DNA from: a virus
DNA: 64,000 nucleotides
Virus record (IMG/VR): IMGVR_UViG_3300032050_013007
Span: 18,254 to 82,253 of that record
Reading direction: 5' to 3' (one strand)
In this document: positions 35,518 through 63,075 of the stretch, piece by piece
Position numbering within the stretch: the stretch's first letter is position 1
How the letters are laid out: the number at the start of each line of letters is the position of its first letter
The notes under the pieces: generated by a model
The model's database searches: none
Seen by the model: only the letters and a program-made list of their open reading frames with translations
Told to the model about the DNA's origin: nothing
Position numbers and translations under genes: made by a program

Positions 35518-35994
35518 ATGAAAAAAATTAAATTGTCTGAAAACGAATTAAACAAAATCATTAAAAGAGTAATTGAGGAACAAGGTTCCGATAGATATAT
35601 GTTCTTTTCAAACTTAGAACAAATGAGAAGACAATGTGATATATTGTTAAGTAAAAATAGAGATGAAATTGATTCTATTTTAGACAATGGTCACGATTGG
35701 GCTCAAGACCATATTGCCGAAGCAAAAAATAATATGGACCAAGTGTTTGATTTCTTAATGAATGAAACAACCGATGAAGGCGATTTAGATGACCAATCGG
35801 ACGAAGAGGAAATGGTTATGATGGAAGGTCGTAAAAAGTCAGGTACAAAATTGTGTGCTAGAGGAAAAGCGGCGGCTAAGGCAAAATTTAAAGTTTGGCC
35901 CTCAGCTTATGGGAACGGTTTTGCGGTTCAGGTTTGCCAAGGTCGAATGAAAGGGCTTGACGGTAAAAAAAGATGTTCTCCACCTTATTGTTAA
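35518..35994 (+). CDS. Small protein with a leader-like helix and a basic Cys-containing C-terminal domain
   Basis: The 158-residue product begins KKIKLSENELNKIIKRVIEE, nearly the same leader as the protein at 62686 (RLTETELNNLVKRVIQE), with an (I/L)-x-E end. The middle is acidic (about 85-105). The C-terminal 55 residues, LCARGKAAAKAKFKVWPSAY and on to KKRCSPPYC, are basic with four Cys and resemble a short domain that recurs in phage and large-virus proteins. I infer a packaged internal protein whose basic domain could contact DNA. There are no membrane segments. Confidence 0.55.
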   Translation: MKKIKLSENELNKIIKRVIEEQGSDRYMFFSNLEQMRRQCDILLSKNRDEIDSILDNGHDWAQDHIAEAKNNMDQVFDFLMNETTDEGDLDDQSDEEEMVMMEGRKKSGTKLCARGKAAAKAKFKVWPSAYGNGFAVQVCQGRMKGLDGKKRCSPPYC

Positions 35995-35997
35995 TGT

Positions 35998-36366
35998 ATG
36001 GAATTTATAAAAAAATATTGGTATTACTCAGTTATATTGGGGTTAGTTCTTTACATAATAACAACTCCAAAAAAAGTTTACAGAGTTGTCCCAAAAGAGA
36101 ACGACAAATATGTTAAAGTTATAGATAAGTTAAAAGATAGTATCAATAACTTGAACTTAGAAAAAAATACCTTACTTTTGAATAAACCAACTTCCCAAGT
36201 TGAGACCGTTACGGTAACCATTAAATCACCACCAAAAGAAAAAATAATTTATCAAAATGAAGTCATTGTTCAAGAATCTGATTGTATTGATTTTTATTCT
36301 GACCGCAAGCTTGACAGTTTGTGGACAGGAAGTAGAACTACCAAAAAGAATAATCTTAAAAGGTGA
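35998..36366 (+). CDS. Membrane-anchored coiled-coil protein, possible inner-membrane spanin
   Basis: The 122-residue product has one N-terminal membrane helix (YWYYSVILGLVLYIITTP, about 7-24), then a periplasmic coiled coil (YVKVIDKLKDSINNLNLEKN, about 37-56) and a charged tail. This topology is that of inner-membrane spanins (Rz). The next gene starts inside it in another frame and carries a signal peptide, as in Rz/Rz1 pairs. No endolysin or holin gene is adjacent, so the lysis role rests on topology and overlap alone. Confidence 0.5.
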   Translation: MEFIKKYWYYSVILGLVLYIITTPKKVYRVVPKENDKYVKVIDKLKDSINNLNLEKNTLLLNKPTSQVETVTVTIKSPPKEKIIYQNEVIVQESDCIDFYSDRKLDSLWTGSRTTKKNNLKR

Positions 36367-36760
36367 TTCGGGTGTTTTCTTCACAAAAAAACAAGAAAAA
36401 GTATTAATATACAAGTTGAATTATATCAAAACCCTTGAAAGACAGATTGATTCGTTAGAAAACGAAAACCAAAAATGTTCGGTTAATTTAAAAGCATCTG
36501 AAATAACTAATGAAGTTATTTCAAAAAGAAAAGAAGATTTATATCAAATTGTAAGTATACAAGATTCGTTAATAAAAGGTCAAGAAAGTATAATCAATAC
36601 TAAAGACGAAAAATTACGTAAATGGAAAAAAACAACTCTTTGCACTGGAGTTGTTGCGGTTGGTTGTGTTTTTGCCGGAGTCACAGGTGCTTGGTTACCC
36701 GCAGTCGCGGTAATTGCCGTTACCGAAGCCGCAATTATTTTTACAAAAAAAACAAAATAA
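36257..36760 (+). CDS. Exported coiled-coil protein with C-terminal membrane segment, overlapping the preceding gene
   Basis: The 167-residue product overlaps the previous gene by 110 bases in the +1 frame. It has a signal peptide (LIVLIFILTASLTVCGQ, about 8-24). The Cys could be a lipobox, but Val at -1 is unusual; cleavage after GQ would match the other signal peptides here. A coiled coil follows (TLERQIDSLENENQ, about 54-67), and then a hydrophobic C-terminal segment (about 127-162). An outer-membrane spanin would not have the last feature, so it may be a different two-part envelope protein. Bounded by the host-type promoter at 36762. Confidence 0.5.
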   Translation: MKSLFKNLIVLIFILTASLTVCGQEVELPKRIILKGDSGVFFTKKQEKVLIYKLNYIKTLERQIDSLENENQKCSVNLKASEITNEVISKRKEDLYQIVSIQDSLIKGQESIINTKDEKLRKWKKTTLCTGVVAVGCVFAGVTGAWLPAVAVIAVTEAAIIFTKKTK

Positions 36761-36820: not shown

Positions 36821-37246
36821 ATGAACATTATTAAGACAAAACTGAAAAAACTTTACTCAAAATTTATTATTTGGTCTCAGAAAAAAATTAAAGCAAATCA
36901 AAGGAGTAAAGAAGAGAATATTAAAACTTGTGTTTCAATATGTCGCAAATTAATAAAACACGAAAGTTCTAAGTTTGTTATCGCACCTATATCGGGTAAA
37001 AAATATATTAAAAATAAAGAGCTAGGTCTTTTTGTAATTCTAGATGGTGGTAAAGTTAGTATCACAAACCACGTTTACCATTATGATATATTTTTAGATT
37101 TGAAAGAGTGGGATAGTGTTGTACGAATGTATGATGCGAGAACCGAAAAAGAAGTACAAGTATATGAAAATGAAATAAAATCTCAGATTGAGGTCTCCCT
37201 ATCAACGATACTTACAAAAGTTAGTGAAAATAATTTAGTTATTTAA
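36821..37246 (+). CDS. Unknown protein expressed from a host-type promoter
   Basis: The 141-residue product starts with a very basic region (MNIIKTKLKKLYSKFIIWSQ, KKIKANQRSKEENIK), then KLIKHESSKFVIAPISGKKY, a beta-rich middle (LGLFVILDGGKVSIT) and DLKEWDSVVRMYDARTEKEV near the C-terminus. There is no signal peptide. It is preceded by a perfect Bacteroidota promoter, unlike its structural neighbours, and its stop overlaps the stop of the opposite gene by 8 bases. An early host-takeover role would fit the promoter, but no family is recognised. Confidence 0.5.
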   Translation: MNIIKTKLKKLYSKFIIWSQKKIKANQRSKEENIKTCVSICRKLIKHESSKFVIAPISGKKYIKNKELGLFVILDGGKVSITNHVYHYDIFLDLKEWDSVVRMYDARTEKEVQVYENEIKSQIEVSLSTILTKVSENNLVI

Positions 37247-37961
37247 TCTCTTTTATAATCTTATCAATTAACCTATCAAGAGATTCGTTTTGATTTTTTC
37301 TTGGTTTGTATGATGTCATTTTTGGTGAATTTCCTGTTCCTGATTTATTATGGGTTTTTTCCGCTCTCCTTTTTTGAGCACAAGCGGCCTTTTTCTGAGA
37401 ATCCGACATTTTTGAGGCAACTCCTGCCGCTCTACATTTAGGGTATCCTTTATCAGAAGCTTCAGGTCTACCACATGGAGGGTGACCACCACCTTCTTTT
37501 GTTCTACATATATTAACCCAAGGACCCTTAGGTTGACTACTACCCTTTGGTTTTTTCTTAGTTCCAAACCATACTGCTAAATCTTCTGAGATAGTACTCT
37601 CATTTATTTCAACCCACTCTTTAATTGGTACAAAATTTAATCCTTTACCAGGGGTTTGATTTATATTATTTCCATCATCATCACTAAATGTCATGTACGG
37701 ATTTTTTTTCATTTTATTAGTAATTTTTCGTGCAACCTTTTCAATTTTTTTTATTTGGTCTAATCTTTCATTCATTTTACCATCATAACTATCGTACTGT
37801 AATAACGGACTATCATATTCTGATACAGGTATATTAAATGGTTGTAATTGTGTTTTATCAAAAGGTCTTATGCCTGGTTGTAGTGCGGTAATATAAGAAC
37901 CGGCACCACCTGAATCTGACGCAGCTTCCAATAAAACTTTTTTTATTATGTCACTTAACAT
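37239..37961 (-). CDS. Small basic Cys protein (DUF5872-like region) with a leader-like helix
   Basis: The 240-residue product begins MLSDIIKKVLLEAASDSG, a short amphipathic helix with LLE before Ala, as in the other leader-bearing proteins. The region at about 137-205 is basic and Cys-rich: GPWVNICRTK, GGGHPPCGRPEA, GYPKCRAAGVAS and KKAACAQKRRAEK. It resembles the small DUF5872-type domain found in phages and large viruses. The protein ends with another amphipathic helix (ESLDRLIDKIIKEIK). I infer a packaged internal protein. Four Cys and one His could bind a metal. Confidence 0.55.
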   Translation of the reverse strand: MLSDIIKKVLLEAASDSGGAGSYITALQPGIRPFDKTQLQPFNIPVSEYDSPLLQYDSYDGKMNERLDQIKKIEKVARKITNKMKKNPYMTFSDDDGNNINQTPGKGLNFVPIKEWVEINESTISEDLAVWFGTKKKPKGSSQPKGPWVNICRTKEGGGHPPCGRPEASDKGYPKCRAAGVASKMSDSQKKAACAQKRRAEKTHNKSGTGNSPKMTSYKPRKNQNESLDRLIDKIIKEIK

Positions 37962-37980
37962 TTTAAAATAAAATTCTTAT

Positions 37981-37995
37981 TATTATAAATATATC
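37981..37995. promoter_or_regulatory. Candidate late promoter shared by divergent genes
   Basis: On the minus strand this reads GATATATTTATAATA, 19 bases before ATG 37961. On the plus strand the same bases read TATAAATATATC, 5 bases before ATG 38001. TATAAATA is the T4 late consensus, so the site may fire in one or both directions. Confidence 0.5.
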
Positions 37996-38000
37996 ATTTT

Positions 38001-38240
38001 ATGGAAAACCAAGAAGAAGAATTATACGGAAAAATATTTGATGAAATTCCTTTAATTAGTGAAGAACATTTAGAATTGATTTTGTCAAATATGTCTTATG
38101 ATGAGTCAATTTATTTTTTAACTCAAGCATGTAAATCCGCTTACCACAGAGGAGCATTCTCTATAGGAGAAAGTGAAATAATCTCTAAAGCCATTAGAAT
38201 TATATCTAAAACAAAAAATAAAACAACTACTGAGGATTAA
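38001..38240 (+). CDS. Unknown small acidic protein
   Basis: The 79-residue product is acidic and helical: EELYGKIFDEIPLISEEHLE, MSYDESIYFLTQACKSAY and FSIGESEIISKAIRIISK. No domain is recognised. It is a single plus-strand gene between two minus-strand genes, and its last 4 bases overlap the end of the gene at 38237. The promoter-like sequence in front is shared with the opposite gene. Confidence 0.45.
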   Translation: MENQEEELYGKIFDEIPLISEEHLELILSNMSYDESIYFLTQACKSAYHRGAFSIGESEIISKAIRIISKTKNKTTTED

Positions 38241-38683
38241 TCTCCTGAAGACGGGTCTTCTTTTCCTGTTGTGGATGTATTAGACCCTGTCGATGTTACA
38301 GTACCTGTTCCTGTGGTATTAGTTCCTGTAGTTGATGTGTTAGTTTGAGTAGTTGCAGTATTACTTCCTGTAGTTGATGTGTTAGTTTGAGTAGTTGCGG
38401 TATTACTTCCTGTAGTTTCTGTACTAGCGGTACTTGGTGCTGATGTAACTCCACCTGTTTTAATAGTATCTAAAGCCTTTACTATTGCTGCTGATGTTTT
38501 TGGTCCAAATCTGTTATCCGCGACTAAACCCGCATTAAAAGGTGCTTGATTTAATTTGTTTTGAATATCTTGAATTGTATAATTGGTAGTTTGCTCAAAC
38601 AAAAACGTGTTATACCCAACTTTAAGATGCTTAGATAAAATTTGTCTTCTTTCTACTTCTGAAATTAATATTCTTTTTTTCAT
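38237..38683 (-). CDS. Peptidoglycan-binding-like small protein with Ser/Thr repeats
   Basis: The 148-residue product has an N-terminal module (KRILISEVERRQILSKHLK, then YNTFLFEQ) that aligns with the start of the next protein (YLDDSEKNRILEMHSN, QYLLNES). Residues about 38-72 (IQDIQNKLNQAPFNAGLVAD, then NRFGPKTSAAIVKALD) match a PG_binding_1 domain, which binds peptidoglycan through three helices. The C-terminal 70 residues are Ser/Thr/Gly repeats (TGSNTATTQTNTST twice), ending in SSGD. It is probably a packaged or virion-associated cell-wall-binding protein. Confidence 0.6.
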   Translation of the reverse strand: MKKRILISEVERRQILSKHLKVGYNTFLFEQTTNYTIQDIQNKLNQAPFNAGLVADNRFGPKTSAAIVKALDTIKTGGVTSAPSTASTETTGSNTATTQTNTSTTGSNTATTQTNTSTTGTNTTGTGTVTSTGSNTSTTGKEDPSSGD

Positions 38684-38702: not shown

Positions 38703-39776
38703 TTAATCACCGCTTGATGCACTGCTTGTTGTTGATTGTACTTCGTAAGGTGTTGGTGTCGGCGTTGGTGGTTTAACTCCATTTGTTAGTAAATCCATTA
38801 TTTTGTTTATAGTTGTTTGGTCCATAGAACCTGTTGGTTTATAGGTTGAATCCAATTCAACTATTTTGTTTTGTACATTAGATATAGAACTACCTCCAGT
38901 TCCTTGTCTATTTCCCTTACTTCGTCTATGTCGACTACCACTACTACCACCACTTCCACTACCACTTCCACTACCTGAACTATCAACCGCTCCCCAACCA
39001 GCTTCAGTAATCATTCTAACAAACTCTCTCTTCTTTGACTCCATTTGTGGTGTCAAATCGGTATTTGTTTTGTCCGTATATGCACCTGAAGTTTTTTCTA
39101 ATTTACCCGCTTTACAAGCGTAATATCCAAAATCTTTCCAATTTTTATCATATAAACGACCATCACCTATAAAAAATATAAATTCATTATTATTTATATT
39201 TGCTCTTAAATAATCACCATACTGAGAACAAACTGGTTTTGTGTCAAAAAACATATCAGGACTTGTACAAGGATATTTTTGCTGAACCTTATTCCAATCC
39301 CAACCCTTACATCCGCCAGCGGTTGCTCCTCCTAGAGATTTTGGTTGCACCGTTTCCGCCTGTTGAATTAAATTTTTTAACTGTTCTTTAGCCTTTACTC
39401 CATTAGGACTTAATCCTACATAAGTAAAGGATTCAATTTCATTGAACAGTGTATCCCCTTCATCGGCCCTATACTGTATTAACAAAGCTTGTAATGCGTT
39501 TATTAATTTTTTATCATTTAAATTTGTGTCGTCAAGATACCACTGATTAATTAATCTCGCAGCAATATCCCTAATTTTCACTAAGCCACTCTCAGTCACA
39601 TAAAAATCTAACGTATCAACAAATGTTTGAACGTCTCCACTTAAATCATTATCTTTATATGGGTCTTGTTCAGTTCCGGCAGATTCATTTAATAAATATT
39701 GATTTTTAGTAGCGTTAGAATGCATCTCTAAAATCCTATTTTTTTCGCTATCGTCCAAATAATACAATTTTTTCAT
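38703..39776 (-). CDS. Paralogue of the preceding protein with a longer central domain
   Basis: The 357-residue product shares the N-terminal module (EKNRILEMHSN, YLLNESAG) with the protein at 38237 and the same C-terminal SSGD. The centre (about 150-250) has Trp- and Cys-containing segments (GGCKGWDWNKVQQKYPC, FIFFIGDGRLYDKNWKDFGY). A Ser/Gly linker (SGSGSGSGG) and a peptidoglycan-binding-like unit (ISNVQNKIVELDSTYKPTGS, MDQTTINKIMDLL) follow, then a Pro/Thr run. No catalytic residues stand out. A packaged or tail-associated wall-binding protein is the likely role. Confidence 0.55.
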   Translation of the reverse strand: MKKLYYLDDSEKNRILEMHSNATKNQYLLNESAGTEQDPYKDNDLSGDVQTFVDTLDFYVTESGLVKIRDIAARLINQWYLDDTNLNDKKLINALQALLIQYRADEGDTLFNEIESFTYVGLSPNGVKAKEQLKNLIQQAETVQPKSLGGATAGGCKGWDWNKVQQKYPCTSPDMFFDTKPVCSQYGDYLRANINNNEFIFFIGDGRLYDKNWKDFGYYACKAGKLEKTSGAYTDKTNTDLTPQMESKKREFVRMITEAGWGAVDSSGSGSGSGSGGSSGSRHRRSKGNRQGTGGSSISNVQNKIVELDSTYKPTGSMDQTTINKIMDLLTNGVKPPTPTPTPYEVQSTTSSASSGD

Positions 39777-39811: not shown

Positions 39812-39837
39812 AAAAAAGGGAGTAAACTCCCTTTTTA
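39812..39837 (-). terminator. Intrinsic terminator after the subtilase gene
   Basis: An AAAAAGGGAGT/ACTCCCTTTTT stem with a two-base loop is followed on the minus strand by a T run. It lies 18 bases after the subtilase stop and just upstream of the late-promoter motif of the next gene. Confidence 0.85.
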
Positions 39838-39854: not shown

Positions 39855-42179
39855 TTATTCTTTTGAAATTTTTCTTATTTCTACTGTTCCATCAGAGTAA
39901 TGGATGTGGATTATATTAAGTCCTTTTTCAAGTATTGCTTCTTCCATAGTCTTATATCTTACAGGATTTTCATACAGTTTACTAAATTGTCTAACCTCAA
40001 CATAATCAATATCTGATGTAACATCATTGTTTGTTGCGGTTGTTAATCTACTAACCGTACAATCAACTTGATTATTATTTAAATTAGTATCACCTGTTCC
40101 TCCGTTTACAGTTAGAATTGTAACTCTCATTATGTTAGTACCTCCAGGTTGAATTGCACAACTTGTCGAACTAAAACAAACCTGAGACGAACTCCAAGAA
40201 GCACCAATAGGGTTTGTTGGGGTTCCTCCTCCAGGTAAAAATATATATTGCCCCGGTAATAATGGTCCTTGCCAAGAAGTTGATGTGGGCCAAGTCAGCA
40301 CTGAACCACAAGGACTTAATGGATTTGTATACCCTGAACAATCAACCCAAGTTCTTCTCCAAGTAAATGATGTAATAGGAACTGAACCTGTGTTTGTAAC
40401 TTTCCATTGGAAAGATACTGCGGCTTGAGATGATGGAACTGTTATACTCCCTGATAATGGAGAAGTTATAATTAAAGATAAATCCGCACCTGTAACTGCC
40501 GGTTGAGTAATTGTGAAACTTGATTGTTTTGTATTATCTGTGGATATGGTCTCAGATACTGAACCCATATAGTTTACCCTACTTATAATGTATCTTAACC
40601 CTGAGGTATTTCCAACATTATATGTTAAAGTTTCAACATCAGTTGCAACACCACCTCCAAGAGTACCACTAGTTGTACCAATAATAATATCATCAGCATC
40701 ACCCCAAGTTGTGTTAGTTGATAATCTATGTTGAGTCATCACATTAACCGCAGGGTATGAAGGATTTTGAGTTGCAATTGTTGCAGTGATTGTAATACTA
40801 GAGTTAGCAAGAACTGATGTTGGATTAATAGTTAAAGTATTAATTACAAAATTATGTATTTGTGATGGTGGTGGTGGAGGTGGTACATCTCCTCCCGGAT
40901 TTGGTGTTGAGTTGATTGCATCTCTCAAATTAATTCTACCATAACCAAGTTCATTACTTCTTGTAGAATATGGCCAAGTTGGATTATTTGTATAACTATA
41001 CCCACCAACTTTTTCTGCGGTTTGAGATAATATTTGTAACACTTGGTCATCAGTTAATTCCCAATTCTTATAAAAACAAAATGCCGCTGAAGCCGCAAAT
41101 ATCGGACAAGAGAATGATGTTCCACTTATTGAGGTGTAATCACCCGAATTATATCCTGCAGTTCCTGGTCTATCGACAGTTCTAATTGAAACGCCAGGTG
41201 CGGATATATCACAAATTTGTCCAAAGTTAGAAAAACTTGCTTTAAAGTCACTTTGTGATGTTGCACCAATACCCCAAACACCACTATAATTTGCAGGATA
41301 CTGAGCGGCAGTTCCTGAATATTGATTACCAGACGATGCAACTACAACCATACCTTTACCGCCTCTCGCAGTTGTTCTTGCGGATTGAAAGGCGGCATCC
41401 AATGCTGATGAATAAGATGAACCTCCATAAGACATTGCAATTGCAACACAGGTTGGATTAGCCATCGCAGCATTAACACCATTAATTTGGATAACATCAG
41501 AAGTAAAAAAACTACCTCCATCAAATACTTGTGACATAATGTTAACTGGCATAACTTTTACTTTGTTATTACCAACACTACTAACACCGATACTATTATT
41601 TGTAACCGCCGCAATAGTACCTGAACAAGTTGTTCCGTGTTTGTCAAAAGAATTAACATAAGGAATATTAGTTGTACTGTTAACCGCATTAAATGGATTT
41701 GTTGTGTTTCCAGCTAAATCAGGAATAGTTAAATCAAGCCCTCCATCAAACATTGCAACACTTACTGTTGGATTGTTTGCCGGAACCAAGTCCCAAGCTT
41801 CGTCAGCATCAATATCCTTATCCGTAGATTGTTTAAGATGCCAACATTGGTTAAACTCAACATCATTTGGAATATAATCCAATTTCATTTCTACTTTTTG
41901 GTCTTTGTAGACCTCTTTAATAAACGGAAGGTCTTTAGATGACCTAACGAATGAATCTTGAGTTAAGTTTTCAGGTAGTAATACAACATACCATCCAAGC
42001 TGCTCAAAATTAGCAACAATCTGAGCGTTACTTCTTTGAATAAACGCTTGGGTTTGGGATTCCATTCCTTTTTGTGGAACCACCATTACTTGTCTGTCAA
42101 TATTTTTGGATAGGTCATACTGACTATATCCAAAAATAAATGAGAAACAAAACGAGAGTAATAAAACGATTTTTTTCAT
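39855..42179 (-). CDS. Secreted subtilisin-like serine protease (S8) with C-terminal beta domains
   Basis: The 774-residue product has a signal peptide (KKIVLLLSFCFSFIFGYSQ) and a pro-region (about 21-115). The S8 catalytic domain has Asp145 (VAMFDGGLD), His181 (DKHGTTCSGTIA), oxyanion Asn285 (ASSGNQ) and Ser355 (SGTSFSCPIFAAS). After a Pro run (GGDVPPPPPPS), two CARDB-like beta domains follow. The tail EKGLNIIHIHYSDGTVEIRK resembles a type IX secretion sorting domain. Such proteases are normally bacterial, and the gene has its own late-type expression unit and terminator. It probably digests host or neighbour proteins outside the cell, or aids release. All catalytic residues are intact. Confidence 0.85.
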   Translation of the reverse strand: MKKIVLLLSFCFSFIFGYSQYDLSKNIDRQVMVVPQKGMESQTQAFIQRSNAQIVANFEQLGWYVVLLPENLTQDSFVRSSKDLPFIKEVYKDQKVEMKLDYIPNDVEFNQCWHLKQSTDKDIDADEAWDLVPANNPTVSVAMFDGGLDLTIPDLAGNTTNPFNAVNSTTNIPYVNSFDKHGTTCSGTIAAVTNNSIGVSSVGNNKVKVMPVNIMSQVFDGGSFFTSDVIQINGVNAAMANPTCVAIAMSYGGSSYSSALDAAFQSARTTARGGKGMVVVASSGNQYSGTAAQYPANYSGVWGIGATSQSDFKASFSNFGQICDISAPGVSIRTVDRPGTAGYNSGDYTSISGTSFSCPIFAASAAFCFYKNWELTDDQVLQILSQTAEKVGGYSYTNNPTWPYSTRSNELGYGRINLRDAINSTPNPGGDVPPPPPPSQIHNFVINTLTINPTSVLANSSITITATIATQNPSYPAVNVMTQHRLSTNTTWGDADDIIIGTTSGTLGGGVATDVETLTYNVGNTSGLRYIISRVNYMGSVSETISTDNTKQSSFTITQPAVTGADLSLIITSPLSGSITVPSSQAAVSFQWKVTNTGSVPITSFTWRRTWVDCSGYTNPLSPCGSVLTWPTSTSWQGPLLPGQYIFLPGGGTPTNPIGASWSSSQVCFSSTSCAIQPGGTNIMRVTILTVNGGTGDTNLNNNQVDCTVSRLTTATNNDVTSDIDYVEVRQFSKLYENPVRYKTMEEAILEKGLNIIHIHYSDGTVEIRKISKE

Positions 42180-42200
42180 TTTAAAGGTTAATTAATTTAT

Positions 42201-42785
42201 TTATTTACTTCGTTTATACTTATTAAAATCCGTATAAACGGGAGTTTCGTTTTTGAAATAATATATTTCTTCTTTATTTCCATATCTTATTGTTTTTATG
42301 AACGCATCAGGAACTGTAGCTCCTGACGGAAGAATTAAAGATTTTTTAGAATACACCATTCTAATCTCAACAATAACCGATTGTTTTTTAGACAATTCTC
42401 TTTCATATTGTTCTAATAATCTCCACACACCTCTATTTAATTTTTCGTGTTGTAAAACACAATTTAAGTATGTGAATGTTAATTTAAGAGTTTCTTTATT
42501 ACAATTAAAGTCGGCGGCAGGAGCCAAATGACCCTTATCGTATATGTTATTCTCGTAATCCCTGTTATCAGAAGTTAAAATAGAATCACAGGTATAAAAA
42601 TCTAAACCTTTACGAGATATATTCCCATCAGAACATTTTACGTGATATTCAATCCATTTTGGTTGTTGTAATTTTTCAGAATAAACTATATCAAAAATAG
42701 AGGTTCTTATATAAATTGAATCTCTTATTTGTCCGAATGAAAAAATTGATAATAATAAAAAAATCTTAAAAAAAATAAACTTCAT
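42201..42785 (-). CDS. Secreted DNA/RNA non-specific endonuclease (NUC family)
   Basis: The 194-residue product has a signal peptide (FIFFKIFLLLSIFSFGQ, about 3-19) and the core of the DNA/RNA non-specific endonuclease family: NIYDKGHLAPAADFNC with the DRGH-type motif DKGH (His86), the metal site segment TYLNCVLQHEKLNRGVWRLL (about 105-124), then a helix ELSKKQSVIVEIRMVY. These enzymes cut DNA and RNA with a single metal ion. The second Asn-containing motif reads LNCVLQHEKLN instead of the usual NxxPQxxxxN, a modest change. With its signal peptide it would act in the periplasm or medium, perhaps degrading DNA after lysis or protecting against competing DNA. Confidence 0.78.
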   Translation of the reverse strand: MKFIFFKIFLLLSIFSFGQIRDSIYIRTSIFDIVYSEKLQQPKWIEYHVKCSDGNISRKGLDFYTCDSILTSDNRDYENNIYDKGHLAPAADFNCNKETLKLTFTYLNCVLQHEKLNRGVWRLLEQYERELSKKQSVIVEIRMVYSKKSLILPSGATVPDAFIKTIRYGNKEEIYYFKNETPVYTDFNKYKRSK

Positions 42786-42803
42786 TTATAACAAATAATT
42801 TAC

Positions 42804-42813
42804 TATAAATATC
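42804..42813 (-). promoter_or_regulatory. Candidate phage late promoter
   Basis: On the minus strand it reads GATATTTATA, 18 bases before the ATG at 42785. Confidence 0.6.
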
Positions 42814-42875
42814 TAAAATTGTTTTCGAGTTTTGTTTAACTTTATAAATTAGACAAACAACAAAATAGTATAGAC

Positions 42876-42906
42876 AAAAAAAAGGGGTTCATTATGAACC
42901 CCTTAA
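42876..42906 (-). terminator. Intrinsic terminator after the outer-membrane protein gene
   Basis: AAGGGGTTC and GAACCCCTT form a 9-bp stem with a 5-base loop, followed on the minus strand by eight T. It lies about 20 bases after the gene ending at 42926. Confidence 0.88.
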
Positions 42907-42925
42907 TAATTAATTAATATAATGT

Positions 42926-43717
42926 TTAAAACATAATCTGTAAATTGGCGGTAATTGGTCTATTAGCAACAGTTGGGTTTGGTACAATTGCGGTTTTATA
43001 CATAGGATTCACCATTATAGTTAAACGACTTTGAGCGTCGGTAGTTTTAGAGAACTGCAATGTTCTTTTAATTACAACTCCTACATTTGTAAAACCAGCT
43101 TTAGATTGGAAGTTTAACTGTGATTCACCTGTGACATACCCAACAAATAAATCGGCATTGTAATCTAAGTGATAAGTTGCCTCAATATACGCAGCTCCTC
43201 TTTTATACGCTTCATTTTGATAAAATACAAAGCTACCCCATAAGTCAATTCTTGATTTAAGGTCTCCTTTATATTTTAACGCCAACTCAAAAAAGTGATT
43301 TGTTGTTGCTTTGTCAAAATGGAAAAAAGAAGTATCTGATTGGGTTGGGGTGTTTTGATTAAAATAAACATCCTGTATTCCTATTGATGTGTTATACACA
43401 TTAAAAAACATTCCGTTTTTAACAGTATTACCGTATCCATCTTTAAATTGATTGTATACAACACAAGCTTCTGAATTTAATGTAAACCAATCAACTGGTT
43501 GATAGTCGGCTTCCATTTTTATTACAGGTTGTTTACCAACGTCCATACCTCTCCATAAATTACTTGTCGCCATTCCGTATTCACTCGTAAATGGACTTTG
43601 TTTTTTCTTTGGTTTAAAGAATAACCCTTGTTCAGTTGTATCGGCAATTGAAGTTTGTCCAATCGCAAATATTGATACGAACATCATTAGGGTTAAAAAT
43701 AAAATTTGTTTTTTCAT
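42926..43717 (-). CDS. Probable outer-membrane beta-barrel protein (TorF/porin-like)
   Basis: The 263-residue product has a signal peptide (ILFLTLMMFVSIFAIGQ). Its mature part alternates hydrophobic and polar residues and includes SEYGMATSNLWRGMDVGKQP, as in the putative-porin family whose strand one reads Y...RG. The last residue is Phe (LQIMF), the usual barrel assembly signal in Gram-negative hosts. Tyr and Trp girdle residues recur (KGDLKSRIDLWGSFVFYQNE, YIEATYHLDYNADLFVGY). A barrel inserted in the host outer membrane may change phage receptors, block superinfection or help lysis. It starts with a motif-like promoter at 43749 and has its own terminator. Confidence 0.7.
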   Translation of the reverse strand: MKKQILFLTLMMFVSIFAIGQTSIADTTEQGLFFKPKKKQSPFTSEYGMATSNLWRGMDVGKQPVIKMEADYQPVDWFTLNSEACVVYNQFKDGYGNTVKNGMFFNVYNTSIGIQDVYFNQNTPTQSDTSFFHFDKATTNHFFELALKYKGDLKSRIDLWGSFVFYQNEAYKRGAAYIEATYHLDYNADLFVGYVTGESQLNFQSKAGFTNVGVVIKRTLQFSKTTDAQSRLTIMVNPMYKTAIVPNPTVANRPITANLQIMF

Positions 43718-43748: not shown

Positions 43749-43760
43749 CATAAATATATA
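43749..43760 (-). promoter_or_regulatory. Candidate phage late promoter, weak form
   Basis: On the minus strand it reads TATATATTTATG, 31 bases before ATG 43717. Confidence 0.45.
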
Positions 43761-43824: not shown

Positions 43825-43910
43825 ATTTGAAAACAAGGTTAGAACGAAACAATCCTAATCTTTAGGTGGGTTGGAAGACGATTAAGATACAAGGCCCACC
43901 TTATTTATCT
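43825..43910 (+). ncRNA. Candidate small RNA with two hairpins
   Basis: Downstream of the host-type promoter, the sequence contains GGTTAG (43839-43844) able to pair with CTAATC (43855-43860, one G-U), and AGGTGGG (43863-43869) pairing perfectly with CCCACCT (43894-43900) around a 24-base loop. No open frame of coding character is present. The downstream T content is weak, so the 3' end is uncertain. The stop of the minus-strand gene is at 43905. The evidence is promoter plus structure only; no known RNA family is recognised. Confidence 0.4.
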
Positions 43911-44318
43911 CCATAAAACCAATTGATTTCTACCAACTCTAAATGGGTTTTCTTCAGATTCTCTGAAAACTGTAGTTATAATAAGCTTCCAATATGTCCC
44001 ATCAACATGAACAGGAGTAACAGGAACCGCGAGCTCCCAATTTAATGATTTTAATATAAAAGATTCATCATCTTTTATTTCACCACTAACTATTTTTTCA
44101 GAAATCTCTCTAATAAATAAACTTACAAATTCTTTTAGTTCGGAATTTGATATTTCTCTTTGATTATACGAATCGCCCAATTCGGGTCTTGTTGCTCTAT
44201 CAAAAGCATGTTTTTTCCTATCGACCTCAAAATTAAAAATTATTTTTAACTCAGAAGATATTTGAGCAATTCTTTTTTCTAATAATAAATGTTCTTTTAT
44301 TATTTTTCTAAGTGTCAT
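43905..44318 (-). CDS. Unknown phage protein with a leader-like helix
   Basis: The 137-residue product starts MTLRKIIKEHLLLEKR, an amphipathic helix with LLE, then RIAQISSELKIIFNF. A segment KKHAFDRATRPELGDS (about 35-50), recalling small toxins with an H-x-x-x-R-A motif, is followed by a beta-rich end, WKLIITTVFRESEENPFRVG. The late-type promoter lies only 4 bases before the start, and the capsid operon terminator lies behind it. The H/R pattern is not strong enough for a nuclease call. It is an internal protein candidate. Confidence 0.45.
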   Translation of the reverse strand: MTLRKIIKEHLLLEKRIAQISSELKIIFNFEVDRKKHAFDRATRPELGDSYNQREISNSELKEFVSLFIREISEKIVSGEIKDDESFILKSLNWELAVPVTPVHVDGTYWKLIITTVFRESEENPFRVGRNQLVLWR

Positions 44319-44346: not shown

Positions 44347-44380
44347 ATAAAAAAGGTCAGATTTCTCTGACCTTTTTATT
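44347..44380 (-). terminator. Intrinsic terminator after the capsid gene
   Basis: AAAAAGGTCAGA and TCTGACCTTTTT form a 12-bp stem with a 4-base loop and a T run on the minus strand, about 18 bases after the capsid stop at 44398. Confidence 0.9.
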
Positions 44381-44397: not shown

Positions 44398-46251
44398 TTA
44401 TCTCAATTCTCTTAAGTCGAATGAACGAACACCATCAACTGTGATACGTCCGTAGAAACGGTTATTAACCATTTTCTTAGCGTAACGTGTCATGATACCC
44501 TTGATAGGTGTAAAGTTGAATGGATTGTACATAGTTGGAGTTAATTGAAGTGGTACATACGGTGCGTAAATGTAACCAGTATCAAGTAACGATGTACCTT
44601 TGTGACCAATCAATACTTGGTTTGGTGGGAAGTATGGGTCACGATATACTTGGTAACGACCAGCAAGTGTACCCACTCTTTCAATACCCATGTTGTATTG
44701 GTCTTGCTCAGGTGATGCGTTAGAAACGTGGAAGTATTCTAAGTCATCAAAGATTGCAGAAACCTCAGATGATACAACAATCCAGTTAGCTCCACCACGA
44801 AGTGTTGACTTGTGGATTTGAGCTGATAATTGGTTAATTGCCGTAATCAAAGTTTGGTTCCAGTCTTTCTGAGTGTAAGAAGTTGTGTTAGCAAGTCTTC
44901 TCCATCCGTTGTAGTCCCAACGTAAATTCCAAGCCGCACCTTTACGAAGGTCACGAAGGATTTCACGGTCAATTTCAGCCGCAACTTGTTCTGACAACAA
45001 TGCTGTCAATTCAGCTTCAGCGTCAATGTTGTGGAATGCCGCAACGTCTTGAGCAAGTTCTGGTGACCATTGTGCTCTCAACTTTCTTTCAGTTACAGAA
45101 ACTGTTACTGACTCAAGGTCGAAAGAAACTTCACCAATCTTGTCTTCAAATTCTAACTCTTCATAACGTCTCCAAGCCGCGTAGAACGAAGTAGTCGTAG
45201 CCGCAGATGTGATAGTTGCACCAGTGTAACCATCGATAGTGTCAGAACCACATGTAGGACATGCAGGACATGATAAGTCAACCTCAAGATAAATAAAACC
45301 TTGTGGTGAACAGATGTCATCATACTGACCACCATTACCTTGTGTTGGCCATGATGCTGTTCTTTGATTGTAGTTTGGATTAATAATTGCTCTACCGTAT
45401 TGTTGAGTAACTACTCTATACAATAGAGGTCCTGATGAAAGTGCGCAAGGGCTACTAGGTGCAGTAAGACCTGAACCTGAATAAATGATTAAGTTCGATA
45501 AGAAAGATTCTGTATCATATTCAGCACCATCAGGAGCGGTAAGTTTACCAGCACCTGTATTAGAAAATCCTGAAAGACCGATAGTAATTTTTCTTGTGTT
45601 ACCGGCATAAGAGGCTGAAGATGTTTGAGGTGCCAATGCGCCGTTTTGCCATGTCATAACAATACAGTTAGATGTAATTGCAGACCAACGACCTTTTGAA
45701 TAGTCAAAAAGACCTGCTGGGTCAAGACCTGGCTCAGAACCTTCATAGAATAAATCGTAAAGGTTTTTAGCGTATGTACCATTGTAAGAACCGTTAGATA
45801 ACGTGTAACCTGAATTAGGGTCACCAGGATAATTACCAGGTGAACCTACAGGTGCGTAGTGTTGACCTGAATTAACGTCATAAGCTCCAGTTCCAGCACC
45901 AGTACCATCTTGGTAACCCTGAATCTTTGGTACAAAGTAGAACAATTTACCGATTGGTAGGTTCATAGCTTGTACTGAAACGATTTCATTAGCAAGTAAT
46001 TTTGAGAATACTCTTCTAACGATAGGGAATACAACAGTTTCAAAAGAACCTGATGAACCGTCTGAAGTTGCTTCGTTTATCAAGAAGCTAGCTTGGTTTT
46101 CATAAAGCTGAGCTACGTTCTCTTTTAGGTGACCACGAAGGCCTTCAAGGAACCCTAATTTGTCCCATTTGTTAATAGTATCTTCCTTGATAACTTTAAG
46201 GTGCTTAAGACCAATGTTACCAACAAGACCTGATTCTAATAATGCTCCCAT
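44398..46251 (-). CDS. 23: Major capsid protein, T4 gp23-like
   Basis: The 617-residue product matches the T4-type capsid plan: an N-terminal scaffold-binding segment (1-60), a predicted cleavage point after Glu60 (ENQASFLINE then ATSDG), FPIVRRVFSKLLANEIVSVQ (about 75-94), and a long insert (about 115-345, Gly/Tyr/Thr-rich). GEVSFDLESVTVSVTERKLR and WSPELAQDVAAFHNIDAEAE follow, then the C-terminal IYAPYVPLQLTPTMYNPFNF and GIMTRYAKKMVNNRFYGRI. Its length exceeds T4 gp23 by about 95 residues, mostly from the insert. It forms the head shell after cleavage by the prohead protease encoded upstream. Confidence 0.93.
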   Translation of the reverse strand: MGALLESGLVGNIGLKHLKVIKEDTINKWDKLGFLEGLRGHLKENVAQLYENQASFLINEATSDGSSGSFETVVFPIVRRVFSKLLANEIVSVQAMNLPIGKLFYFVPKIQGYQDGTGAGTGAYDVNSGQHYAPVGSPGNYPGDPNSGYTLSNGSYNGTYAKNLYDLFYEGSEPGLDPAGLFDYSKGRWSAITSNCIVMTWQNGALAPQTSSASYAGNTRKITIGLSGFSNTGAGKLTAPDGAEYDTESFLSNLIIYSGSGLTAPSSPCALSSGPLLYRVVTQQYGRAIINPNYNQRTASWPTQGNGGQYDDICSPQGFIYLEVDLSCPACPTCGSDTIDGYTGATITSAATTTSFYAAWRRYEELEFEDKIGEVSFDLESVTVSVTERKLRAQWSPELAQDVAAFHNIDAEAELTALLSEQVAAEIDREILRDLRKGAAWNLRWDYNGWRRLANTTSYTQKDWNQTLITAINQLSAQIHKSTLRGGANWIVVSSEVSAIFDDLEYFHVSNASPEQDQYNMGIERVGTLAGRYQVYRDPYFPPNQVLIGHKGTSLLDTGYIYAPYVPLQLTPTMYNPFNFTPIKGIMTRYAKKMVNNRFYGRITVDGVRSFDLRELR

Positions 46252-48220: not shown

Positions 48221-48946
48221 TTAATATCCCAAATAATCGTTCAATTTTTTCATTAAGTCAAGCGATTTGTTACCATTTGACCCAACTTCTCTTTCCATCC
48301 TCATATTTTTCTCATCGTCAAGATTTTCTTCAAAATTAAATCTATCATCAGGATTTAAGAAAAGATACGCACCTGGTGTTGACGGGGATGACACTAAATC
48401 AAAACAAATTAATTCAAAGTCATCTTGAACTTCATTTTGTTCTCCAACTTTTTTTAATGACCCAACACCACGAGAAGAAATTCCAAGTGTTACACCTTGT
48501 CTTAAATAATTTGCAGCTAAATCTCCTTTAGTAGAACAAACACCTCTTTCATGAAATCCTGGTGAAGTTAATAATTTAATTTTACCCATCAACACAGGTC
48601 CTTCCCACCATATATCTGTGATAGCATGAGAAACTCTATCTAAATCAATTAATGATGACTCAGGGTGGTTTAACTCAGATAGAGCGGTTCCCTTTGCAAT
48701 CATTTTTTTATAATTCTCGGCTTCTCTTTTTAATATTTTTTCAGGATATATTCTACCGTTTCTATTTGGTGTGTTATACTTTTGTAATACAGCGTAAAAC
48801 TCAAATGGTTTTGAGTGGTCTAACATTTTGTCAGATTCTCTAATAAGGTTTGCGTTTCTGGCTTCAGTTGGGGAAATATATCCCGCATCGTATTCTATTA
48901 GAATACCTTTACCCGATTGACCAGGTTTTAGAACTTGCATATTCAT
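48221..48946 (-). CDS. 21: Prohead core protease, gp21-like
   Basis: The 241-residue product has the herpes-type prohead protease core: YAVLQKYNTPNRNGRIYPEK (51-70), ELNHPESSLIDLDRVSHAIT (91-110) with catalytic His94, WWEGPVLMGKIKLLTSPGF, and VTLGISSRGVGS (152-163) with the nucleophile Ser at 157 or 158. ELICFDLVSSPSTPGAYL follows. T4 gp21 cleaves head proteins after (L/I)-x-E, including the capsid protein and scaffold, before DNA packaging. It sits between the portal and the scaffold genes, as in T4. Its motif-like promoter is at 48957. Confidence 0.9.
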   Translation of the reverse strand: MNMQVLKPGQSGKGILIEYDAGYISPTEARNANLIRESDKMLDHSKPFEFYAVLQKYNTPNRNGRIYPEKILKREAENYKKMIAKGTALSELNHPESSLIDLDRVSHAITDIWWEGPVLMGKIKLLTSPGFHERGVCSTKGDLAANYLRQGVTLGISSRGVGSLKKVGEQNEVQDDFELICFDLVSSPSTPGAYLFLNPDDRFNFEENLDDEKNMRMEREVGSNGNKSLDLMKKLNDYLGY

Positions 48947-50450: not shown

Positions 50451-50460
50451 TATAAATATC
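50451..50460 (-). promoter_or_regulatory. Candidate phage late promoter
   Basis: On the minus strand it reads GATATTTATA, 11 bases before ATG 50439. It overlaps the 3' end of the portal gene. Confidence 0.6.
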
Positions 50461-52249
50461 AATCTCGTAGAAGTTTGCTCAATTGATTCTCCATTTCACC
50501 TAAAGAATTTTTTGCTCTAGATAAATCAATGTATGAATCGTCTTCAGTCAAACTATCGTTTTCTAAAAGAATTTTTAAATTATCCCTTTTAAAGTTTTCG
50601 GGAATTGGAGGTTCTGCACCTCCTGCAGGTTCAGGTGATGGTGGGGCTCCCCCTCCACCAGGAGGCGCCGGTGGGGCTCCACCTGCGGCAGTCGCTCCTG
50701 TTACAGAACCATATAACTTATCTACATTATCAAATATACCCGTATGAGTAATAATAGTTGCGGTATTAGTTAATTCAGCACCAACCGCCTTTTCAATTCT
50801 TTGTTGTTGTAAATCAAGTTTAATTTCTTCATCACTAAATCCAAGTACGTGTTTTTTAGCCCAAGAAACTGACACAGGTGCAATACCCTCAATCGCCGTA
50901 ACTGCGTCTTTATATAAAAGTATTTTTTCCTTCCAAACATCAACTTTCAATAAATCCGCTTGGGTCGATGGATTGGTTAAACCTAAGGTGAAGTTAGATA
51001 ATTCATCTTCAAACCCCATTAAAAACAGGTGAATAATCGCAATCTTATTTAATTCGGCAATCATACACTTTTGAATTCTGTTTATGGTGCGAGCAAAACG
51101 TATGTCTTGTAATGACAAATTTTTACCTTCACCTACAACCTCTTCAAAACCTAAAAACGCTTTAGGTACACGTAATGCAGTCAATAGTTTCTTTTGGATG
51201 TATTCAATATCAGCGATTTCAGATAAGTTTTGAGCGCCAGGTAAAGTATCGATTGGAGATGCTTGTGCTGGGTCACGAACAGGAATAAAATAATCTTGGT
51301 CAACCGCCATTTGATTAAATCTCATATCAACATTACCTGTCTTTGAGTCAACTACTTGGTCACGTTTAAACTTATTTGCAACACGTTGTACATAAGCTTC
51401 AACATCCTTATCATCCATATTACCAACAAACACCTTAAACACTCTTCTTTCAGGGGCTCTTGATGTTCTGTATATCAACATAGCATCTTCGGATAATAAC
51501 AATTGTTTCCAAATACGACGAGCTTTTTCCAACATAGAGGTACCATAAGGGAGTTTTCTATCGTCACCAAGCAATCTAAAGTGAGCAACTTCCCATGAAT
51601 TAAATTCCATGTCTTTTGCTTTCCACTTAAATCTTAAACCTCTATTTTCTTTTGGTTCATCAACATTTTGAGTTTTTGCCGGCATTCCCCTTTCCAATCT
51701 TTCAATCTCAATATTGGGTAACTGCATACAACCAACAACACCTTTTTCAGGGTCTAACTTTAGATATACAAAGTTATCTCCATACTTACAAGTGTTTCTT
51801 GTCCACATTGGTAAGTTGGTATTAAGGTCAAGTGCGTTATTAAATAAATCAGTTAAAATTCCTTTTATTCTTTTTGATTCAGAATAAATTTGCAACATAT
51901 AACCATTTTGGTCTACAGTTGTTGATTCTTCTCCGTATATGTCTAAAGCTGCAGAAATCTCTGGAGTATATTCCATACTCTCATAGTCATAAAATGAAGC
52001 CAAACGAGTTGGTTCATAATATACGGCTTGTGTATACAAATTACTCTCAATCTTCGTCCATTGGTTTGCCAAATAGAAAGTTTGTTGAGCTTGTAAAAGT
52101 TCTTTTTCATATTCTTGTTTTGAAGTGGTTTTGAGCAGCTCTTTCTTATCAAATTTATATGTAGGATAATCTTGATTTAACTGAGCGTTAGGTCCAAAAG
52201 CCCTTGTTAACCTCTGCCAAACTGTATACTGATTGTTGTTATTTTCCAT
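50459..52249 (-). CDS. 20: Portal vertex protein, gp20-like
   Basis: The 596-residue product has the T4 portal layout: FYDYESMEYTPEISAALDIY (about 81-100), ESTTVDQNGYMLQIYSESKR, TRNTCKYGDNFVYLKLDPEK, VAHFRLLGDDRKLPYGTSML, ILYKDAVTAIEGIAPVSVSW and a DIEYIQKKLLTALRVPKAFL segment. A Gly/Pro-rich linker (about 520-550) precedes a short helical tail, an extension absent from T4. The portal forms the dodecameric ring at one head vertex through which DNA enters. It sits between the terminase and the prohead genes. Confidence 0.92.
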   Translation of the reverse strand: MENNNNQYTVWQRLTRAFGPNAQLNQDYPTYKFDKKELLKTTSKQEYEKELLQAQQTFYLANQWTKIESNLYTQAVYYEPTRLASFYDYESMEYTPEISAALDIYGEESTTVDQNGYMLQIYSESKRIKGILTDLFNNALDLNTNLPMWTRNTCKYGDNFVYLKLDPEKGVVGCMQLPNIEIERLERGMPAKTQNVDEPKENRGLRFKWKAKDMEFNSWEVAHFRLLGDDRKLPYGTSMLEKARRIWKQLLLSEDAMLIYRTSRAPERRVFKVFVGNMDDKDVEAYVQRVANKFKRDQVVDSKTGNVDMRFNQMAVDQDYFIPVRDPAQASPIDTLPGAQNLSEIADIEYIQKKLLTALRVPKAFLGFEEVVGEGKNLSLQDIRFARTINRIQKCMIAELNKIAIIHLFLMGFEDELSNFTLGLTNPSTQADLLKVDVWKEKILLYKDAVTAIEGIAPVSVSWAKKHVLGFSDEEIKLDLQQQRIEKAVGAELTNTATIITHTGIFDNVDKLYGSVTGATAAGGAPPAPPGGGGAPPSPEPAGGAEPPIPENFKRDNLKILLENDSLTEDDSYIDLSRAKNSLGEMENQLSKLLRD

Positions 52250-52295: not shown

Positions 52296-52309
52296 TTATA
52301 AATATTATC
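52296..52309 (-). promoter_or_regulatory. Candidate phage late promoter
   Basis: On the minus strand it reads GATAATATTTATAA, 46 bases before the portal ATG at 52249. It overlaps the last codons of the terminase gene. Confidence 0.5.
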
Positions 52310-62674: not shown

Positions 62675-62687
62675 TCTCCCTTTTTTT
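62660..62687. terminator. Bidirectional intrinsic terminator
   Basis: AAAAAGGGAGA and TCTCCCTTTTT form an 11-bp stem around a 4-base loop, with T runs on both strands. It contains the Clp stop codon and serves the convergent gene ending at 62686. Confidence 0.88.
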
Positions 62688-63075
62688 AATCTAATCTTTG
62701 TGTTGCTAGTTGTTCTATCGTATTAATCAAATTGGCGTAAGCCGTAAAGTGATTAATTGCACCATCAATTGATGTCAAAAGATTTTGTTTTCTATCAGGT
62801 GGCATTTTTGAGCTTTGGACCTTATTTTTCAAGTCTCTAAGTTGGTCCATAATCTTGACATTTGGAGCATCTAACTTTTTTAGTTTTCTTGTAAGTTGAC
62901 GAAGGCTACTTAGATATTTAAAATAATCATAACCATATCCTCTCCATACTCCTTTTAATCCTTGAGCCGCATTTACCAAAGGGTCGAATATACCCTCTTC
63001 CATTTCTTGTTCTTGGATAACTCTTTTTACTAAATTGTTGAGTTCTGTTTCTGTTAGTCGTATAACTTTTGACAT
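62686..63075 (-). CDS. Small protein with a capsid-targeting-like leader
   Basis: The 129-residue product starts VIRLTETELNNLVKRVIQEQ, nearly the same leader as the protein at 35518, with IQE before Gln. The rest is a helical bundle (YFKYLSSLRQLTRKLKKLDA, then DQLRDLKNKVQSSKMPPDRK), with no known domain. A late-promoter motif is 13 bases upstream. Probably a packaged internal head protein. Confidence 0.55.
   Translation of the reverse strand: MSKVIRLTETELNNLVKRVIQEQEMEEGIFDPLVNAAQGLKGVWRGYGYDYFKYLSSLRQLTRKLKKLDAPNVKIMDQLRDLKNKVQSSKMPPDRKQNLLTSIDGAINHFTAYANLINTIEQLATQRLD

Follow-up and report, generated by a model that had tools for sequence, protein, structure and literature searches.

Three genes for exported proteins beside the major capsid gene

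Three adjoining minus-strand ORFs occupy positions 39855–43717 of the window, by which we mean the whole 64,000-nucleotide stretch of viral DNA that was analysed, and they lie where the first-pass annotation had placed them (Table 1). Their products are a subtilase of family S8, a nuclease of the Endonuclease_NS family and a barrel-type protein. The source is a giant T4-like phage, probably with a Bacteroidota host, and the portal, terminase and head protease genes share a block with the gp23-type capsid gene that borders the three-gene slot.

Table 1. Features of the slot and its borders in the window
Feature	Position	Strand	Basis
Convergent gene pair, far slot border	37239–38240	38001–38240 plus; 37239–37961 minus	Conserved downstream of capsid gene across relatives
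Intrinsic terminator after subtilase gene	39813–39836	-	Sequence
Exported S8 subtilase (predicted), 774 aa	39855–42179	-	Peptidase_S8 (PF00082), E 2.3e-31, 109.6 bits vs 21.8
C-terminal tail of subtilase, T9SS-like but not passing	39858–40010	-	Profile tests
Ig/Fn3-like beta-sandwich domains, C-terminal region of subtilase	40038–40850	-	AlphaFold2, mean pLDDT 76
Catalytic domain of subtilase, residues 138–414, triad D145/H181/S355	40938–41768	-	Pfam and alignment
Subtilase signal peptide MKKIVLLLSFCFSFIFGYS, then Q	42123–42179	-	Q-rule site in all full-length homologues
Exported non-specific nuclease (predicted), 194 aa, H86/N117/E125	42201–42785	-	Endonuclease_NS (PF01223), E 5.8e-24
DKGH motif of nuclease, residues 83–86	42528–42539	-	Alignment of homologues
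Nuclease signal peptide MKFIFFKIFLLLSIFSFG, then Q	42732–42785	-	Q-rule site
Late-promoter-like motif ATATTTATA before nuclease gene	42804–42812	-	Motif count in window
Intrinsic terminator after barrel gene	42882–42904	-	10 pairs, then T run
Barrel protein, outer-membrane porin-like (predicted), 263 aa	42926–43717	-	Profile match to bacterial barrels
Barrel signal peptide MKKQILFLTLMMFVSIFAIG, then Q	43658–43717	-	Q-rule site
Promoter-like motif ATATTTATG before barrel gene	43749–43757	-	One mismatch to ATATTTATA; weak
Terminator-like hairpin by capsid gene, bidirectional	44350–44377		Sequence
Major capsid protein (gp23 type), slot border	44398–46251	-	Pfam Gp23, E 3.3e-73; PHROG_138, E 4.2e-66

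All three predicted proteins begin with a Sec signal peptide with a small residue at −1 and Gln at +1, the arrangement known as the Bacteroidetes Q-rule (PMC5837995, PMC10653852). Signal peptides with a Gln had been claimed before and are present in all three, but the Gln is the first residue of the mature protein and not the end of the leader. It is kept in 6 of 6 barrels, 26 of 27 nucleases and 19 of 19 full-length subtilases (a twentieth entry of the subtilase set is an internal fragment), and it stays while the sequence before it varies, with 4, 17 and 13 different leaders for barrel, nuclease and subtilase, respectively.

The active sites of both enzymes appear intact, as had been proposed. 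D145, H181 and S355 of the subtilase are invariant in 14 homologues, in agreement with family S8. Its catalytic domain, the part that was compared, resembles those of Mirolase, its nearest solved structural relative, and of other secreted Bacteroidota S8 proteases, whereas its C-terminal region differs from theirs. Foldseek searches with this region returned RbmA, integrin and complement C3, generic beta-sandwich matches of low TM-score. In the nuclease, DKGH takes the place of the usual DRGH, and the catalytic H86, the Mg-binding N117 and E125 are invariant in homologues, supporting the assignment to PF01223 made by the profile match; the spacing of these residues is like that of Serratia nuclease.

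The barrel protein had no match in Pfam, PHROG or NCBIfam, PF09694 included. By profile comparison, however, it is related over its full length to a bacterial outer-membrane barrel superfamily, with a match to Gcw_chp-type barrels (hhalign 99.1%, E 4.7e-19) set against a non-significant reversed control (0.2%). A search of 396 Bacteroidota genomes with an HMM recovered eight weak relatives, and one bacterial relative passes PF09694 itself (31.9 bits vs 24), while a genome scan with the barrel gave no match and the barrel alignment, used to scan viral sequences a second time, brought up no new relatives. With Gcw_chp members it shares a [WF]RG motif region, a barrel-like strand pattern and the C-terminal Phe noted earlier, which proved invariant in 6 of 6 barrels; unlike them, it falls below Pfam detection, and the profile alignment shows an identity of about 20%. 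Its strand amphipathicity exceeded that of all 500 shuffles. The AlphaFold2 model, built from 6 alignment rows only, had a pLDDT of 31.

The motif ATATTTATA occurs 10 times in the window against 3.9 expected, a count reached by none of 100 shuffles, and all copies lie just upstream of genes, among them other genes of the capsid/portal/terminase block. As terminators follow the barrel and subtilase genes and no copy of the motif was found before the subtilase gene, the three genes apparently form two transcription units and not three. This corrects the proposal that at least two of the genes have their own promoter motif and terminator, the barrel gene having only a one-mismatch copy of the motif.

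Linkage, exchange and selection in a hypervariable slot

In the relatives compared, the slot between the major capsid gene and the conserved convergent pair is hypervariable, ranging from 49 bp to 7 kb. It is empty in many related phages and holds different exported proteins in others, including surface- or adhesion-like ones (SprB repeats, CUB, GEVED) and some with true T9SS sorting domains. The order capsid-barrel-nuclease-subtilase is found in 12 or more contigs of related phages, which answers the call of the first-pass annotation for conserved linkage. Moreover, the nuclease gene lies within about 3 kb of every close subtilase homologue that has flanking sequence, and the pairing holds at other sites too and where the two genes diverge. 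To date, every phage seen with the barrel has this pair as well, and one of them has the barrel elsewhere. To judge from these arrangements, nuclease and subtilase form a linked pair across contexts and the barrel a separate module; the three genes, though linked in related phages, are not one operon.

All three genes have dN/dS values of 0.05–0.15, indicating purifying selection. Between the window and one related contig (L012), dS is 0.20 for the subtilase gene and 1.1–1.5 for neighbouring genes, a difference pointing to gene-by-gene exchange within the slot. All three protein families are common in bacteria, and the genes could in principle be a recent random insertion of bacterial DNA serving no phage function. 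This we consider highly improbable given the recurrence of the set, the purifying selection, the lack of repeats flanking the three genes and the distance of bacterial subtilase homologues, which are at most about 38% identical; the earlier view of a phage-borne, exported and conserved set is the one these data support.

The subtilase tail had also been likened to a type IX secretion sorting domain. This was rejected by three routes, since the window subtilase matched neither PF18962 in Pfam nor TIGR04183 in NCBIfam, examined up to E 1, and hhalign scored its tail at 12.4 against the T9SS profile, no better than the 13.5 of the reversed control. PF18962 had no match in the whole record from which the window was taken, and neither profile matched in a 322-kb relative. 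Transport of the protein to the surface by the host T9SS, by means of a short and degenerate signal at its C-terminus, thus seems quite improbable, even though related phages place genuine T9SS domains in this slot (PF18962 at E 3.1e-11 on the subtilase of L120 and at 1.3e-13 on its neighbour), the subtilases of L037 and L074, 51–53% identical, have CTD-like tails (hhalign 78%) and a similar GLNIIHIHYSDGTVEIRK hairpin ends the window tail.

Possible action outside the cytoplasm

What the genes are, their export signals and active sites, the slot, the linkage and the selection were read from the sequence itself, and we infer the late timing, the place after export, the substrates and the benefit to the phage. 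The set probably alters the envelope or the surroundings of the infected cell during phage production; the first-pass annotation had suggested receptor block and matrix clearing as possible roles. The explanation that we favour, though only tentatively, is that the slot is a late-expressed cargo site of a giant T4-like phage infecting Bacteroidota, whose products act outside the cytoplasm against superinfecting phages. They would leave the cytoplasm by the host Sec/signal peptidase I route, with mature N-termini pyroglutamylated according to the Q-rule, and nuclease and subtilase would behave as one transcriptional and evolutionary pair. A non-specific nuclease in the cytoplasm would threaten the phage genome, so the phage may depend on export by design. 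The likeliest place of action of both enzymes would be the periplasm or the surface of the infected cell while it is still alive, and their targets would be incoming DNA and protein, chiefly the injected DNA of superinfecting phages and their tail or pilot proteins; the barrel would insert into the outer membrane, acting like a porin, and change what binds or gets in. The hypervariable slot and gene-by-gene exchange count for this explanation, as fast turnover is typical of conflict genes, and so do the conserved Q-rule leaders, the invariant active sites, the low dN/dS of all three genes, the place by gp23 in a block that shares the promoter motif, and the linkage of the set; late timing counts against it, being less ideal for exclusion than early timing. 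It is possible, but doubtful, that the slot behind the capsid gene is a dedicated loader of a swappable envelope kit made up of enzymes, barrels and T9SS surface proteins, of which the nuclease-subtilase-barrel set would be one kit, working as a unit against competing phages.

The nuclease lies near nucleotide-metabolism genes in other phages, so nutrient scavenging would fit as well: the enzymes would break down nucleic acid and protein beyond the cytoplasm, with the barrel letting in the products or small nitrogen compounds, thereby feeding the replication of a very large genome. The nuclease gene adjoins RNR genes in the isolated phage immuto and phosphoribosyltransferase and dCTP deaminase-like genes in L069, L035 has a thymidylate synthase gene 2.4 kb upstream, both L035 and L031 have glutamine synthetase next after the nuclease-subtilase pair, and the three bacterial barrel relatives examined adjoin ammonium-channel-, aquaporin- or FNT-like genes (identified by eye from their sequences). 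These neighbourhoods may, however, merely be the metabolism region of the other phages, and a hypervariable slot by the capsid gene is atypical of metabolic genes; glutamine synthetase, rejected as a constant partner since it occurs in only 3 of 21 records, is missing from the window's record and from the 322-kb relative. We keep scavenging as a serious, though rather unlikely, rival. A little less likely, but likewise a serious rival, is a role in release or dispersal, in which the enzymes would collect beyond the cytoplasm towards the end of infection and, once the cell lyses, cleave chromosomal DNA, S-layer or matrix protein and so free the virions. The position of the genes in the late structural block agrees with such a role, and the enzyme pair would suit a mixed matrix of DNA and protein, but the resemblance of the subtilase C-terminal domains to the biofilm scaffold RbmA is weak, as the TM-scores above indicate, the other slot occupants are surface- or adhesion-like proteins and not dispersal enzymes, and many relatives have nothing in the slot.

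Relation to known phage systems

Most known phage takeover is intracellular. A conserved slot for exported proteins, if the proposed function is true, would mean that giant phages of Bacteroidota reshape the exterior of infected cells with kits that differ by phage, and could bear on the origin of extracellular nuclease and protease activity in lakes. The Lc protein of E. coli phage PA-2, a classic trimeric porin encoded by a prophage, excludes other phages; the barrel would likewise be a phage-made outer-membrane porin, but of a different barrel family and from a presumably lytic phage.

Phage-encoded T9SS cargo in variable genes has been known since 2020 from Cryophage, a 76-kb Bacteroidetes phage whose endoglucanase, GH39 and PA14 cargo carries T9SS CTDs, and whose authors suggest hijacking of host secretion and superinfection exclusion (Bellas et al. 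2020, PMC7468147). The window set shares with Cryophage a Bacteroidetes phage and variable genes for exported host-surface proteins, but it belongs to a T4-like giant phage and comprises a nuclease, a subtilase and a barrel that have Sec leaders and, in the window, lack a recognisable CTD. Candidate genes are thereby on offer for testing superinfection control, nutrient capture or release, including a homologue in Flavobacterium phage immuto (NC_055915). Its gp012–gp017 region encodes a nuclease of this family, 50% identical and with a Q-rule site, which differs in lying beside RNR genes, with no subtilase or barrel seen there; after it come exported proteins of lectin and cohesin type, of which the cohesin one bears a T9SS CTD.

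Identity and export signals of the three proteins

The three open reading frames described in the first-pass annotation were present as claimed, following the capsid gene with one small gene in between. Pfam gave clear passes for the subtilase and the nuclease. The numbering proposed for the subtilase catalytic triad (Asp145/His181/Ser355) was correct and the triad is invariant across 14 homologues. The DKGH of the nuclease was confirmed at residues 83-86, and its other expected residues, N117 and E125, are invariant. The leaders of all three proteins, previously read as signal peptides ending in Gln, match the Bacteroidetes Q-rule (PMC5837995, PMC10653852), each running from a positive start through a hydrophobic core to a small residue and Gln. 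This +1 Gln is kept in 6/6 barrel proteins, 26/27 nucleases and all full-length subtilases, over 4, 17 and 13 differing leader versions, respectively; among ordinary ORFs of these phages, 29% have a small residue followed by Gln within the same stretch. Such leaders are strong sequence-level evidence that the proteins would be exported in a Bacteroidota host.

The barrel protein had no match in Pfam, PHROGs, NCBIfam or PDB. An HMM of six viral homologues produced eight weak matches among 396 Bacteroidota genomes; the bacterial relatives inspected at full length are exported proteins of 220-260 aa, most with an RYVWRG-like motif, and one passes Pfam Gcw_chp. Profile-profile comparison with these relatives gave 99.1% (E 4.7e-19, 213 columns; reversed control not significant), an E-value somewhat flattered by their selection with the same HMM, the margin still being very large. 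Strand amphipathicity exceeded 500 of 500 shuffles, and it is on this and on homology that the predicted barrel fold rests. Neighbours of the three bacterial relatives whose flanks were inspected are presumably ammonium-channel-, aquaporin- and formate/nitrite-channel-like, by sequence recognition.

A variable slot behind the capsid gene

The IMG/VR virus record containing the window (82,253 bp) is probably a piece of a giant phage genome, because the most closely related long contig is 322 kb in size. The three genes follow a T4-type head module, in a slot that spans 49 bp to 7.2 kb, from capsid gene to convergent pair, among relatives with a capsid gene.

Features of the window and of related phage loci
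Feature	Coordinates	Strand	Basis
Large terminase	window 52305-54065	minus	
Portal	window 50459-52249	minus	
Head maturation protease	window 48221-48946	minus	
gp23 major capsid protein	window 44398-46251	minus	
Small gene between capsid gene and the three genes	window 43905-44318		
Barrel protein	window 42926-43717	minus	
Nuclease	window 42201-42785	minus	
Subtilase	window 39855-42179	minus	
Conserved convergent gene pair, far end of slot	window 38001-38240 and 37239-37961		
Proteins with modular N-terminal peptide or shorter LxE peptides	window 38703-39776, 38237-38683; also 35518-35994, 62686-63075, 43905-44318, 37239-37961		
Exported-looking protein; overlapping gene	window 36257-36760; 35998-36366		
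Five consecutive exported genes of related locus L120	10015-16932		
Glutamine synthetase gene directly following the nuclease-subtilase pair	L035 11157-12176		Pfam
Glutamine synthetase gene directly following the nuclease-subtilase pair	L031 9802-10824		similarity
CsgG-like exported protein	L199 8752-9465		by eye

Among 96 capsid loci, surveyed with a simple pattern as leader test, barrel-nuclease-subtilase occurred at 12 (several being near-identical contigs), nuclease-subtilase without barrel at 6, nuclease alone at 3, a distant subtilase at 3 and other signal-peptide genes at 9; the slot was closed without a signal-peptide gene at 47, and 16 loci end too early to classify. The L120 slot holds five consecutive exported genes, three of whose products contain SprB repeats.

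The suggested linkage proved conserved, subtilase homologues of at least 49% identity always having the nuclease inside ~3 kb; in L037 and L074 the two genes are oppositely oriented, and in L025, L031 and L035 the pair is sited away from the capsid slot. The modules are thus mobile between at least two sites yet co-occurring, since the L013 barrel sits in the gene context that holds nuclease-subtilase in L031 and the phage of L013 (G010) retains that pair in its capsid slot. Comparison of the window with the related locus L012 gave 99% identity and a dS of 0.20 for the subtilase, against a dS of 1.49 for the barrel and 1.15 for the nuclease, a sign of gene-by-gene exchange. Flanking repeats, sought as marks of a recent random insertion, were not found. 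At the codon level, dN/dS values between 0.05 and 0.15 show that function has been under selection. A frameshift interrupts the subtilase gene in L002 and L009 only, both from metagenome 3300008114, probably through assembly error.

The motif ATATTTATA, inferred to be a late promoter from the identity of the genes downstream, has 10 copies in the window against 3.9 expected, each just 5' of a gene, including the nuclease gene and that at 38703-39776. The proposal that at least two of the three genes have their own promoter and terminator held in part: the nuclease has the motif and terminators follow the barrel and subtilase genes, but the barrel gene is preceded only by a one-mismatch copy and the subtilase gene by none. 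Motif placement and terminators together predict two transcription units, the barrel gene and nuclease-subtilase (gap 21 bp).

A peptide resembling MKKLYFLDEEEKNRILNLHESATKRQYLxE heads differing capsid-slot proteins in many related phages, and several other window proteins start with shorter peptides ending LxE. As a T4-type head protease is encoded, it looks like a capsid-targeting propeptide of internal head proteins.

Type IX secretion

The sorting domain of type IX secretion (T9SS) that had been suggested on the window subtilase was not borne out, the protein matching neither PF18962 nor TIGR04183 and its tail scoring 12.4 against phage C-terminal domains (CTDs) in hhalign (reversed control 13.5). 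Its C-terminal 350 residues are predicted to form beta-sandwich domains and a small terminal beta unit (pLDDT 76, moderate confidence). CTD-like tails were found on the L037 and L074 subtilases (78%, E 1.8e-5), and true T9SS domains on the L120 subtilase and SprB-repeat protein (PF18962, E 3.1e-11 and 1.3e-13). When whole records were searched, a T9SS domain passed the cut-off in 7 of 16 related phages and in neither the window record nor its 322-kb relative. We conclude from these sequences that T9SS cargo is the natural company of this family, the window member being a candidate at most.

Otherwise different exported slot proteins (L116, L118, L120, L127, L131, L140, L142, L150) share the C-terminal motif KKIVKYVNLLGQEV..KGVIIEIYDDGTxRKIIR, T9SS-domain-like yet not recognized as one. 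Exported proteins that look CsgG-like by eye (L199, with no Pfam match, L201 and L205) occur near T9SS cargo in the isolated Flavobacterium phage immuto and two nuclease-bearing phages.

Possible roles

By sequence, these are exported enzymes whose active sites are intact; their genes are linked, under selection and sited in a variable slot of a structural gene block. Sec-exported without T9SS or lipid anchor, the nuclease would be expected to stay in the periplasm or to be released. During T4 infection, superinfecting DNA ends in the periplasm and is degraded by a host periplasmic endonuclease; a phage-made nuclease and protease in that compartment would form a natural superinfection barrier. 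We tentatively favour this role; slot variability and gene exchange make a role in conflict fitting. Weighing against that barrier and in favour of precursor scavenging, which we consider rather unlikely, the nuclease lies near RNR genes in immuto and near a phosphoribosyltransferase gene and a dCTP deaminase-like one in L069; in L035 the gene for thymidylate synthase is ~2.4 kb away, with glutamine synthetase 3' of the pair. A function in release at lysis seems slightly less probable still.

The variable genes of Cryophage were described in 2020 as encoding T9SS cargo, with surface change and superinfection exclusion likewise suggested (PMC7468147), and in 2019 T9SS domains were described close to head genes of crAss-like type (PMC6949934). 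As far as the searched literature shows, it is new that T4-like giant phages keep a fixed slot after their capsid gene, and so are the nuclease-subtilase pair and the barrel.

Elsewhere in the window, a further protein looks exported: its leader ends in CGQ, and hydrophobic stretches lie in its C-terminal part. Together with its overlapping gene it possibly forms a lysis or spanin-type pair.
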